DNA of 64,000 nucleotides, taken from NCBI RefSeq assembly GCF_900182835.1, contig NZ_FXUB01000002.1, positions 186,001-250,000 of the forward strand, read 5' to 3'. The notes under the pieces were generated by a model. That model ran no database searches. It worked only from the letters and a program-made list of their open reading frames with translations, and was not told the DNA's origin. Shown one piece after another: positions 47,653 through 51,426 of this stretch. Source of the stretch: Desulfurobacterium pacificum (GTDB lineage: Bacteria > Aquificota > Aquificia > Desulfurobacteriales > Desulfurobacteriaceae). Every line of letters begins with the position of its first letter. The first letter of the stretch is position 1. A program made the position numbers and the translations under genes.

Positions 47653-48740
47653 AAATCCTCCACATCAACACCGAAAAAGGCTGGAGAGGAGGAGAACAAC
47701 AACTATTCTACTTAGCAAAAGGTCTAATAGAGAGAGGAATTGATACGGCAGTTGCCTGCAGAAAAGGAGAAGAATTAGAAAGGAGATGTAAAGAGGAAGG
47801 AATTCCTACAGTTCCTCTAAAAGGAAACCAGACTACAGACATACTAAGATTAGGAATTATCGGAAAAAAGTTTGACGTAATACACGCCCATTCAGCAAAA
47901 GCCCACACTTTAGCCGCTTTTTCAAAGCCATTTCACAAGAAAAAAGTGGTATATACAAGAAGAGTAAGTTTTCCTCCAAAAAGAGACCCCCTTACAAAAT
48001 ACAAGTATAAACTTACAGACATCACTATCTGCGTCTCACAAAAAGTTGAAAGAGTAATAAAAGAACAATTAACTAACCTAAAAACGAAAGTCATACATTC
48101 AGTAACATCCACAGAAATAGAAAGAAACGTAGACAATAACGTTGTAAACTCTTTCCGAAATAAGTACAAAGGCAAAACTATCATCGGTACCGCCGCCGCC
48201 CTCACTCCCGAAAAAAATATTCCAAACTTCATAGAAGCAGCAAAAATCGTTACAGAAAAAAGGAAAGATGTCATTTTTGTAGTGTTCGGTGAAGGACACC
48301 TAAAAGGTGAACTGGAAAACTTAGTCAAAAAATTGGGTTTACAAAACAACTTTTTCTTTGAAGGATTCAAAAGAGACATAAACAACTACATAAAAGCGTT
48401 AGACGTTTTCGTCCTACCTTCAGATAATGAAGGCTTCAGCGGTTCAATTCTAAACGCAATGCTACTAAAGGTCCCCGTAATAGCAACAGACGCCGGCGGC
48501 GCAAAAGAAATTGTAGAAAACGAAAGAACCGGTCTTTTAGTTCCGCGCCGTAATCCTGTAAAATTGGCGCACGCAATTTTAAGGCTTTTAGACGATAAAG
48601 AACTCAAAAGCAAAATAGTTTCAAACGCTTACCAAAAGGTTGTGGATAACTTCACAGTTGATAGAATGGTAGATGCATACATCAAGGTGTATGGGGAGGT
48701 AGTAGGTGATAGAAGCATTGTGGGAGAAGTGCTTAAATGA
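47649..48740 (+). CDS. glycosyltransferase, GT4 family
   Basis: 363 residues, GTG start overlapping thrB. N-terminal ILHINTEKGWRGGEQQLFYLAKGL (a nucleotide-sugar fold start seen in lipid-sugar transferases), FDVIHAHSAKAHTLA, then the donor domain with IGTAAALTPEKNIPNFIEAA and LDVFVLPSDNEGFSGSILNAMLLKVPVIATDAGG. It overlaps dnaA by 35 bases. Acceptor unknown; probably envelope glycans. Confidence 0.88.
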   Translation: MKILHINTEKGWRGGEQQLFYLAKGLIERGIDTAVACRKGEELERRCKEEGIPTVPLKGNQTTDILRLGIIGKKFDVIHAHSAKAHTLAAFSKPFHKKKVVYTRRVSFPPKRDPLTKYKYKLTDITICVSQKVERVIKEQLTNLKTKVIHSVTSTEIERNVDNNVVNSFRNKYKGKTIIGTAAALTPEKNIPNFIEAAKIVTEKRKDVIFVVFGEGHLKGELENLVKKLGLQNNFFFEGFKRDINNYIKALDVFVLPSDNEGFSGSILNAMLLKVPVIATDAGGAKEIVENERTGLLVPRRNPVKLAHAILRLLDDKELKSKIVSNAYQKVVDNFTVDRMVDAYIKVYGEVVGDRSIVGEVLK

Positions 48741-50061
48741 AATCAAAAAAGAAATCAAACCCCAGCTATTCAAAACCTGGTTTCAGGACTTAAAAGTTGT
48801 CTCTCTTGAATCAAACACCCTTAAACTTAAAGCAAAAGATAGAATCGTAAAGGAATACCTTGAAAAGCACTACCTCCCCCTCATAAAAGAGATAGCAGCA
48901 AAAGAGTTTAGAAAATACGTTGACGTTGAAATCCTACTACCGGAAGAAGCTCACAAACCCTTACAACCAGAACTTAACCTTTTTAAAGGCTTACCGAAAA
49001 AGAAAGAAATAGAAAGTAACCTCAATCCACGATACACCTTTGAAAACTTTGTAGTTGGTTCCAGCAACCAGTTTGCTCACGCAGCAGCTATGGCTGTAGC
49101 AGAAAACCCTGGAAGGTCCTACAACCCTCTGTTTATTTACGGAGGCGTGGGACTTGGAAAAACACACCTTATGCAGGCAATTGGAAACTTCATAAAAAGA
49201 ATGATGCCATCAAAAACCGTAGTTTACGTAACTACAGAAAGCTTCATGAACGAACTCATAGATGCCTTAAGAAACGACAGAATGGTTCAATTCAGAGAGA
49301 AATACAGAACCGTTGACGTTCTTTTGGTAGACGATATTCAATTCATAAGCGGCAAAGACAGAACGCAGATTGAGTTTTTCCACACGTTCAACGCCCTATA
49401 CGATGCAGGAAAACAGATAGTTTTAACCAGCGATAGACCCCCAAAAGACATTCCAACGTTAACAGACAGGCTCAGAAGTAGGTTTGAATGGGGACTTATA
49501 GCAGACATTCAACCGCCGGACTTTGAAACGAGAATAGCTATTTTGAGAAGGAAGGCTGAAGCTGAAGGGATAGACGTAGATGATAACGTTCTAAAACTCA
49601 TAGCCACAATTATTAAATCCAACATAAGACAGCTTGAAGGTGCACTTATAAAGCTAAAGGCAAAAGCAAGTTTGGAAGGAAGACCAATAGACGAAGAGTT
49701 AGTTAGAGATATGTTCAGCATAGACAGCTCTGTTAAAGTGGAAAATCCCACCCGCTCCGACCTCCCAATAGATGAAATAAAAGAATTAGTCTGCAAGAAG
49801 TTTGACGTTACCATAGAACAGATAGAAAGTTCTTCACGAAAAAAGCAGATAGCGTTAGCCCGCCAGGTAGCTATGTATTTAGCAAGAAAAGTCGGTAACT
49901 ACTCGTTCCCAAAAATCGCTGCAGCGTTCAACAGAAACGACCACACAACTGTAATGCACGCCGTTTCAAAAATTGAAGACCTGAGAGAAACAAACCAGGA
50001 ACTGAACCAGATAATCCTTGAGCTTGAAGAGCGGCTAAACGCCATTATTTCAAGAACCTAA
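48706..50061 (+). CDS. dnaA: chromosomal replication initiator DnaA
   Basis: Origin-binding AAA+ ATPase, 451 residues. Domain I (1-80, ALWEKCLNEIKKEIKPQLFKTWF), a short linker, domain III with Walker A GGVGLGKTHLMQ and Walker B VDVLLVDDIQFISGKDRTQ, and domain IV with the DnaA-box-binding signature NRNDHTTVMHAV. GTG start inside the glycosyltransferase gene. It lies directly left of the origin and is transcribed towards it, thus against the leftward fork. Confidence 0.97.
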   Translation: MIEALWEKCLNEIKKEIKPQLFKTWFQDLKVVSLESNTLKLKAKDRIVKEYLEKHYLPLIKEIAAKEFRKYVDVEILLPEEAHKPLQPELNLFKGLPKKKEIESNLNPRYTFENFVVGSSNQFAHAAAMAVAENPGRSYNPLFIYGGVGLGKTHLMQAIGNFIKRMMPSKTVVYVTTESFMNELIDALRNDRMVQFREKYRTVDVLLVDDIQFISGKDRTQIEFFHTFNALYDAGKQIVLTSDRPPKDIPTLTDRLRSRFEWGLIADIQPPDFETRIAILRRKAEAEGIDVDDNVLKLIATIIKSNIRQLEGALIKLKAKASLEGRPIDEELVRDMFSIDSSVKVENPTRSDLPIDEIKELVCKKFDVTIEQIESSSRKKQIALARQVAMYLARKVGNYSFPKIAAAFNRNDHTTVMHAVSKIEDLRETNQELNQIILELEERLNAIISRT

Positions 50062-50331
50062 ACTACTTATCCACAGGTGTTGTGGATAACTCTTGTGGAT
50101 AACGTTGTGGAAAAGTTTTATAGATGTGGAAAACAAAAATTGCTCGTAAATTATCCACAGATACCGTACTGAATTGTGGAAAACTTAGTACTTATCCACA
50201 TACTTATCCACACCCTTTTCCACACACCTCAAAAAAATTTTTATAGAATTAAACGACTTAAAAGCTTTTGCACAAATTTGATGCATTTTACTATTACTAC
50301 TAATTAAACTGGTTTAACTTGGAGGTACAAA
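50062..50331. other. oriC: chromosomal origin of replication (oriC)
   Basis: The 270 bases between dnaA and dnaN contain ten DnaA boxes. Six are perfect TTATCCACA: + at 50067, 50151, 50192 and 50204; - at 50081 and 50094. Four are TTTTCCACA: - at 50106, 50125 and 50175; + at 50216. The right part (50225-50320) is A+T-rich and contains an A7T5 tract and DnaA-trio-like repeats, the likely unwinding element. The change in strand composition on either side supports this as the active origin. Confidence 0.93.
50266..50302 (+). promoter_or_regulatory. weak DnaA box plus DnaA-trio-like repeats (unwinding site)
   Basis: A one-mismatch box TTTTGCACA (50266-50274) is followed 13 bases later by five trinucleotides which on the minus strand read TAG TAG TAA TAG TAA (50302-50288). 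This matches the DnaA-trio pattern on which DnaA is thought to load onto single-stranded DNA in Bacillus, in the same orientation relative to the box. Confidence 0.65.
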
Positions 50332-51426
50332 ATGAAAATAAGGATAAATAGAAATACAATAAGAGAAGCTGTGAAAAACGTCGCAACTGCTGCTGACAAG
50401 CGTGGAAATATTCCCATACTTTCAAACGTTTTACTTGAAGCTGAAGATAATTCCTTGCGTCTTACTGCAACAAACCTTGAGGTTGGCATTTCAACGTTAA
50501 TTTCGTGTGAAACCGTTGAATCTGGAAAAACAACGGTTAACGCTTTAAAACTTTCAAAATTGGTTGCCAGCTTGACGGGAGAGGAATTGGAACTTGAAAC
50601 TGACGATAGCAAGCTAATTGTAAGGTCTGTGAATTCCAGATTTTCTCTTGCAACGCTTCCTCCAGAAGAGTTCCCAGAAGTGGAACTTCCAGAAAAATAC
50701 AACGTAAAACTTTTAACTTCTGAACTTGATAAGGCGATAAAGAAAGTTTCTTACGCCGTTAGCAGAGATGAAGCCCGTTATATTTTGACAGGTGTTTATT
50801 TAAAATCCTTCGGTGATAAGATTCACGCTGTTGCTACAGACGGTCACAGACTTGCTCTGTACGAAATAAAAGCAGAAGCTGAAGAGTTTTCCGCTATCGT
50901 TCCAAGACGTTCTCTATCGGAGCTTAAAAAACTATTAAGAGAAAGTGAAGAAACTGAAATGCTCCTTTCGGAGAATAAACTCTACTTCAGAATCGGTGAT
51001 ACCGTTATGTGGACCTCCATTATTGAAGGTGAGTACCCTGATTACTTAGCCGTTATTCCTGAAGACAATCCTCTAAAATGCGTTGTAGATAGAGACGAGA
51101 TAGTAAACGCTTTAAAAGAGGTTTCAGTTATTTACGATAAAGAAGAGGTAAGGGCTGTTATTCTGAACTTTACACCTGGCAATCTGAAATTGACTGCAAA
51201 AAAGGTTGAGTTAGAATCAGGTGAAGAGGCTGAAGTTAACGTTCCGGTTGAGTATAACGGAGAAGAGTTTGAGATTACGTTTAACGTAAATTACCTTTTA
51301 GAAGCTGTTAGCTCCTACGATGCAGAATCAGTAAAGATATTGATGGACCAGCCGATATCTCCTGTGCTAATTACTTCAGATGAAGAACCTGAACTGAAAA
51401 ACGTTATAATGCCGATGAAGGTGTAA
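50332..51426 (+). CDS. dnaN: DNA polymerase III subunit beta (sliding clamp)
   Basis: 364 residues forming three clamp domains. KRGNIPILSNVLLEAED, LATLPPEEFPEV, YILTGVYLKSFGDKIHAVATDGHRLALYE and the C-terminal ENVIMPMKV-like ending LKNVIMPMKV are visible. ATG with GGAGG seven bases upstream. First gene to the right of the origin and co-directional with the fork. It overlaps pgsA by one base. Confidence 0.97.
   Translation: MKIRINRNTIREAVKNVATAADKRGNIPILSNVLLEAEDNSLRLTATNLEVGISTLISCETVESGKTTVNALKLSKLVASLTGEELELETDDSKLIVRSVNSRFSLATLPPEEFPEVELPEKYNVKLLTSELDKAIKKVSYAVSRDEARYILTGVYLKSFGDKIHAVATDGHRLALYEIKAEAEEFSAIVPRRSLSELKKLLRESEETEMLLSENKLYFRIGDTVMWTSIIEGEYPDYLAVIPEDNPLKCVVDRDEIVNALKEVSVIYDKEEVRAVILNFTPGNLKLTAKKVELESGEEAEVNVPVEYNGEEFEITFNVNYLLEAVSSYDAESVKILMDQPISPVLITSDEEPELKNVIMPMKV

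Follow-up and report, generated by a model that had tools for sequence, protein, structure and literature searches.

The window (the whole 64-kb stretch of DNA analysed) carries at 50062-50331 a spacer flanked by the genes for the initiator and the sliding clamp (Table 1); the gene names are based in part on the general character of the protein families. The spacer begins with ten DnaA boxes in mixed orientation, five in each, of which six are perfect copies of TTATCCACA and four are TTTTCCACA. Both this count and the A+T-rich region to the right of the boxes were confirmed as originally predicted. Further to the right lie a less perfect box, an imperfect dyad that overlaps it, and five triplets.

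Table 1. Features of the dnaA-dnaN region, in window coordinates.
Feature	Position	Strand	Basis
dnaA, initiator	48706-50061	+	open reading frame; protein match
DnaA box TTATCCACA, perfect	50067-50075	+	consensus match
DnaA box, perfect	50081-50089	-	consensus match
DnaA box, perfect	50094-50102	-	consensus match
DnaA box TTTTCCACA, 1 mismatch	50106-50114	-	consensus match
DnaA box TTTTCCACA, 1 mismatch	50125-50133	-	consensus match
DnaA box, perfect	50151-50159	+	consensus match
DnaA box TTTTCCACA, 1 mismatch	50175-50183	-	consensus match
DnaA box, perfect	50192-50200	+	consensus match
DnaA box, perfect	50204-50212	+	consensus match
DnaA box TTTTCCACA, 1 mismatch	50216-50224	+	consensus match
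A+T-rich side of origin, predicted unwinding region	50229-50331		72-76% A+T in 50-nt windows starting at or after 50212
Trio-proximal box TTTTGCACA, 2 mismatches to TTATCCACA; also left arm of decayed dyad	50266-50274	+	consensus match, alignment of relatives
Decayed dyad TTGCAC-AAATTTG-ATGCAT	50268-50286		alignment with relatives
Five DnaA-trios, 3'-AAT GAT AAT GAT GAT-5'	50288-50302	-	YTA run TTA CTA TTA CTA CTA on +
dnaN, sliding clamp	50332-51426	+	open reading frame; name presumed

Evidence for a chromosome origin

The genome of the window comprises 1,593,312 bases in 11 contigs and contains 27 perfect DnaA boxes. Six of these fall within 146 bp of the dnaA-dnaN spacer, which is the sole perfect-box cluster of the genome. 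At the density found outside, the chance of six perfect boxes in 270 bp is about 3e-18 (leading Poisson term). Cumulative GC skew was determined for the 291-kb contig less 6 kb. It showed a flat minimum at 46-50 kb of the window followed by a steep rise, with a skew of -0.062 to the left of the origin and +0.170 to the right. The lowest point of this contig was at 46716, 3.4 kb from the origin, and the centre of oriC was 25 counts higher. In a closed relative (G009), 20 sampled 15-kb stretches gave a noisy skew with no clean two-arm pattern.

The claim of an origin between dnaA and dnaN thus looks borne out: the box cluster is beyond chance, and the skew minimum, for which a position elsewhere would have spoken against the site, was located nearby on this contig. 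With a DnaA-box cluster beside an A+T-rich region, as is usual for oriC, the spacer is very probably the chromosome origin, and replication in vivo is predicted to start there.

For comparison within the family, 22 genomes were used. A dnaA gene was found in 19 of them (G005, G008 and G014 gave none and hence are outside the set), and 19 dnaA-dnaN spacers, including that of the window, were compared. All 19 contain 10-12 boxes with at most one mismatch when those before and after the dnaA stop codon are counted together. In 11 genomes (L005, L010-L019), the array starts with four or five boxes that are part of the final dnaA codons (last ~80 bases), and the 3' ends coding for them give a VIHxxVDNYVDNYVDN-like protein tail, for example VIHTGVDNYVDNYVDN. 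The stop codon precedes the boxes in the window and seven other genomes; the window equivalent of the box-coding ends is 50067-50114. The total stays at 10-12 whichever side of the stop codon the boxes occupy.

Trios, trio-proximal box and dyad in the family

Read on the other strand, 50288-50302 is 5'-TAG TAG TAA TAG TAA-3'. Five triplets with the trio polarity of Bacillus subtilis had been predicted and were found here; the polarity is shared with the outgroup origins (mostly Clostridia). The basal unwinding system (BUS), a module of box, spacer and trios, demands at least three trios with a middle adenine and prefers 3'-GAT-5'; the window has five, three of which are GAT. A run of at least four YTA occurs once in the 64-kb window, both strands counted. 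Runs of five occur three times in the whole genome, including the origin copy; the other two (G000:C1:237431-237445 and G000:C2:272978-272992) are not near a perfect-box cluster.

At least three consecutive YTA triplets were found in 15 of the 19 family origins and at least four in 13, the window included in both counts. Loss of the triplets in relatives had been named beforehand as speaking against the element, and this conservation answers the point in its favour. Origins without a strict run of three were L007, L008 and L009 (genus g4) and L010 (genus g5); the last has a run of four once A is allowed at triplet position one. Summed over the 19 origins, the longest runs amounted to 67, versus 28.9 +/- 2.6 in dinucleotide shuffles (maximum 39, n = 500). 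For single origins, the shuffle P was <0.01 for 12 of the 15 runs, and L004 (P = 0.0135), L012 (0.0265) and L017 (0.0745) were weaker. The repeat of opposite polarity, TAR, reached three in one of 19 origins, and the control repeats ATY and TTR in 7 and 10, respectively. TAY and AYT scored like YTA, being phase-shifted forms of one and the same repeat.

The distance from TTTTGCACA to the first trio is 13 bp (AATTTGATGCATT, 50275-50287), inside the published spacer peak of 10-13 bp (PMC8287927, available parts). The site has the same polarity as the trios and thereby conforms to the BUS box rule (at most two mismatches, 0-16 bp from the trios). The window has no tandem co-oriented boxes; the 9-mer of the right dyad arm, with four mismatches, would just be admissible as a second box by the published limit, but its distance of 4 bp to the first box exceeds the published maximum of 3. 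The spacer AATTTGATGCATT is not G+C-rich. The DnaA of the window has the hydrophobic ISM residue and the arginine finger that BUS requires: by hand count in the 8btg alignment, I190 of B. subtilis, which serves ssDNA capture, corresponds to I, I193 to L and the arginine finger R264 to R.

The search for boxes with trios asked for three or more YTA and, at a distance of 16 bp or less, a box with no more than two mismatches (rule from PMC8287927, as given in its available parts). One match was obtained in the 64-kb window and one weak match in the remaining 221 kb of this contig. The 40 dnaA neighbourhoods from other families (141,606 bases) gave none, and 300 kb of G009 samples gave two chance-like matches, of which one lies within the edge of dnaN and on its other strand.

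Under this rule, the BUS module fits the window, whereas the family's origins taken together can be assigned to BUS only tentatively, because only 3 of 19 have such a box: the window (TTTTGCACA, 13 bp), L006 (TTTTGCACA, 13 bp) and L004 (TTATCCACA, 15 bp). All three are without a dyad. The other 16 include all 13 dyad origins, none of which combines a trio run with a box of two or fewer mismatches at 16 bp or less (L010, as noted, has no strict run), and L007, L008 and L009, which lack the YTA run itself. When the rule was relaxed to three NTN, with boxes counted only beyond spacer position 100, L002 and L003, both dyad origins, matched as well. L004 has TTATCCACA-ATTCCACA-GCC before its trios, much as in Clostridia.

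The 13 origins contain GTGCAC-N7-GTGCAC (at most one mismatch) directly before the trios. Its arms are GTGCAC in 24 of 26 cases; the 7-bp centre drifts, yet consists of A/T only in 12 of 13. The distance from the right arm to the first YTA is 0-2 bp in 13/13, and to the longest YTA run 1-2 bp in eight and 6-7 bp in five. Perfect dyads with an A/T centre were present in 12 of 136 genomes of the phylum, in 11 of them at the dnaA-dnaN oriC, and the reversed control gave none in the 136 genomes. The twelfth (G012) lies not at oriC but in what is apparently the 3' flank of tmRNA.

In the window, the dyad keeps its TGCA-N9-TGCA core (50269-50272 and 50282-50285). The pair of TGCA cores, set at a distance of 13 bp, does not vary among the 8/8 aligned loci (the window and seven of 18 relatives); L004, L006 and L009, which are outside this alignment, have lost either the dyad or its right arm. 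The dyad place of seven loci (L001, L005-L010) was entered by hand; the automatic search had landed elsewhere for L004, L006 and L009. TTTTGCACA occupies the place of a dyad arm in the window and in L006. The weak box reported earlier before the triplets is present, with two mismatches, but a more fitting description is that of a left arm belonging to a decayed dyad; missed at that time were the GTGCAC dyad itself and the absence of an ordinary trio-side box in most of the family (16/19). By parsimony on the DnaA tree, the states with and without dyad require at least two changes.

An ordinary pair of DnaA boxes was rejected as the identity of the dyad in the dyad origins, because the trio-facing arms are 3-5 mismatches off and do not conserve the initial TT, and because there is no box at 16 bp or less from a trio run. 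The best reading in the opposite direction has two mismatches (L002). Among 150 spacer boxes, a set pre-chosen as close to consensus, none has G at position 5.

Copies of the dyad with at most one mismatch were also counted in the 22 genomes. 13 were at oriC and 17 elsewhere; the reversed control gave 4. A genome-wide operator was rejected, since shuffles of the window's own genome and of G009 give 0.5-2.3 copies per 1.6 Mb and the 17 copies are no excess over these. 15 of the 17 were inspected. Two adjoin an apparent tmRNA 3' end in genus g4 (a perfect copy at G012:C1:1066535-1066553 and a one-mismatch copy at G010:C3:143992-144010), and in both genomes the oriC dyad itself is decayed. Three lie at the end of a fur-like frame (genus g7), and G002, G017 and G018 have copies inside an ammonium-transporter-like frame, where G006 has nearly the same letters. 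G017 and G018 each have one copy before a gene, and the remainder are single. The names tmRNA, fur-like and ammonium-transporter-like are our assumptions from the look of the frames.

The module in other bacteria

BUS is predicted in 1755 of 2070 species, and box- and trio-dependent opening is described with DnaA of B. subtilis and six more species, of which the paper classes three as Gram-negative; the module was reconstituted with DnaA of Helicobacter pylori, Synechococcus and Deinococcus (PMC8287927, available parts). According to the same text, tandem co-oriented boxes occur in 57% of predicted origins and are not required, and the G+C-rich spacer is a B. subtilis feature that was optional in the search (PMC8287927). 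Unwinding in Thermotoga maritima needs TAG repeats (PMC10316083, available parts). A BUS-type trio element at the origin of the window is in itself expected.

As outgroup controls, 80 loci were collected, of which 77 have at least 200 bases after dnaA. A box within 25 bp upstream of at least three YTA was found in 54 of the 77. The 25 of these that were inspected, mostly Clostridia, typically combine a pair of box-like sites with trios and a short spacer rich in G+C. One of the 77 loci contains TGTGCACA or the dyad, and its row shows TGTGCACA. The position of the dyad is that at which outgroup and f4 origins often carry tandem boxes.

No box cluster like that of the window was found in 40 dnaA neighbourhoods from four other families of the phylum. 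Among the matches listed, many genomes of these families have paired boxes elsewhere. 20 such clusters were fetched, and a box with trios was present in 11 of 13 from family f4 and in one of seven from family f3. The f4 trios follow the box after 1-2 bp in 10/13 clusters and after 10 bp in one more. Their boxes are canonical and often tandem and, unlike those of most of the window's family, come without a dyad; judged by sequence, these clusters look like displaced origins with canonical BUS. The f4 clusters with box and trios (L235, L237-L242, L244-L247) are on another contig than dnaA or at least 46 kb away from it. The proposal that the locus extends a Firmicutes-type architecture to a deep branch is not supported in view of the wide prediction of BUS, the module in a second family of the phylum, and T. 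maritima.

Compared with the BUS of the B. subtilis oriC (DnaA-boxes 6/7 and trios), as far as described in the available parts of PMC8287927, PMC6669920 and PMC10721633, the window has the same order of box, spacer and trios, the same trio polarity, a spacer of at most 16 bp, the same place between dnaA and dnaN, and the same ISM isoleucine and arginine finger. It differs in having neither a tandem TTATCCACA-like pair nor a G+C-rich spacer by the trios; the family differs in that 13/19 origins carry the GTGCAC dyad and have no box at 16 bp or less from a trio run. The eTrio of T. maritima oriC resembles the window in its TAG repeats in a distant bacterium, whereas its DnaA box is a divergent 12-mer and its boxes are laid out otherwise (PMC10316083, available parts). 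In Campylobacter and Bdellovibrio, too, dnaA is known to contain DnaA boxes at its 3' end (PMC6052347 and PMC5124646, available parts). In Campylobacter jejuni, as in the family, the origin lies downstream of dnaA with boxes in its 3' end; the trio is degenerate, and a second origin-binding protein, Cj1509, is known (PMC6052347, available parts). The one Cj1509 site compared, TTTCACA, is unlike GTGCAC-N7-GTGCAC.

A literature search by wording found nothing joining the DnaA-trio with Aquificota names and, by title among the matches listed, no GTGCAC-type element at oriC. As far as this limited search goes, a dyad replacing the trio-proximal DnaA box is undescribed.

The DnaA tree was built by a quick method from 64 rows, including 24 of the 80 outgroup loci and 21 of the 40 loci from other families. 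The 24 outgroup rows (mostly Firmicutes) are on one side of a branch with support 99, and the family is not nested among them. Residues of DnaA co-varying with the dyad were rejected as candidates: the separating columns are those of the variable tail at the C-terminus and a small number of further ones, which were judged to follow the tree. DciA was rejected as helicase loader, since it was found in none of the 22 family genomes, with 7 of 14 controls positive. An IstB/DnaC-type ATPase is present besides DnaA in the window's genome and names no loader, because its family is too broad.

Proposed course of opening and alternatives

In the course established for BUS in other species, a filament of DnaA starts from the boxes in duplex DNA and captures one of the strands at the trios. 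The observed elements (boxes, trios, their geometry and conservation, and the dyad) suggest a similar course here. DnaA would fill the ten-box array (50067-50224), and one DnaA at TTTTGCACA (50266-50274) would seed a DnaA filament. The filament would then capture the triplets of the - strand (50288-50302) and open the duplex towards dnaN, and helicase loading could follow. In most of the family, the GTGCAC-N7-GTGCAC dyad against the trios may do the seeding job, and in the window it would have decayed into a single box-like arm. To this reading as a whole, an origin with BUS composed of a box array, a trio-proximal seed and trio capture, with the dyad doing the same job in relatives, we assign a probability of roughly 78%.

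For the dyad-bearing majority, the dyad is favoured as the seeding site because it is close to the trios and because box and dyad are mutually exclusive. Tentatively, trios would be loaded there from the dyad, read by DnaA in a non-box mode or by a dimeric partner, with a state that changed at least two times and more box-like sites in the window and two relatives. A partner protein reading the dyad is about as likely, because GTGCAC is conserved more tightly than would be expected of a weak DnaA box. With the same reserve, a second origin-binding protein, acting as a dimer, may recognise the dyad and either gate the loading of DnaA on the trios or regulate dnaN; its site would then have been lost in the window's genome and others. 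Constant arms around a drifting A/T centre are the usual look of a target with two half-sites, the arms are poor DnaA boxes in origins that have no other box by the trio run, the perfect A/T-centred dyad is almost confined to oriC, and Cj1509 offers an analogy (PMC6052347, available parts). Such a protein is harder to reconcile with the tight coupling of the right arm to the trios and with L004, which has canonical boxes at the dyad place; moreover, the non-oriC copies, within the shuffle range, point to no regulator, and no candidate protein was found. A DNA hairpin in the single-stranded origin, keeping the bubble open or marking a loading site, would agree with three dyads that fold at -8.0, -7.9 and -6.6 kcal/mol (0/200 shuffles as good) and with L007, which alters the outer pair on both sides. 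We regard it as unlikely, because the window copy folds poorly (-2.2 kcal/mol, 86/200 shuffles as good); in addition, the GTGCAC letters themselves are conserved beyond pairing, and the dyad or its right arm is lost in L004, L006 and L009.

Acquisition of the whole dnaA-oriC-dnaN module from Firmicutes could account for the score of the window's DnaA, 432 bits to 8btg versus 239 to 1l8q, which we take to be the DnaA of B. subtilis and Aquifex, respectively, and for a gene order that is presumably as in Firmicutes. The architecture does not look like such an import, since the DnaA tree does not nest the family in the outgroup and the module is general, and we consider this very improbable. Hardly any weight is given to the triplets being chance A+T-rich repeats in the dnaN leader instead of DnaA-trios: they are absent in 4/19 origins and runs of five recur at two further places of the genome, but polarity, place and repeat are kept in 15/19, their sum exceeds all shuffles, and the outgroup origins and family f4 have similar ones.

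Trios are thus present in at least two families of the phylum, in one of them away from dnaA. At the presumed handover of DnaA from duplex to single strand, the origins form a natural series of dyad, decayed dyad with one box-like arm, and canonical tandem boxes. The properties required of a trio-proximal site are therefore testable with short DNA scaffolds and purified DnaA.

The window also contains TATAGAAT at 50242-50249, and in genera g4 and g6 similar -10-like letters precede the dyad place by ~20 bp. If it is part of a dnaN promoter, as we presume possible, the dyad would lie just after the transcription start.
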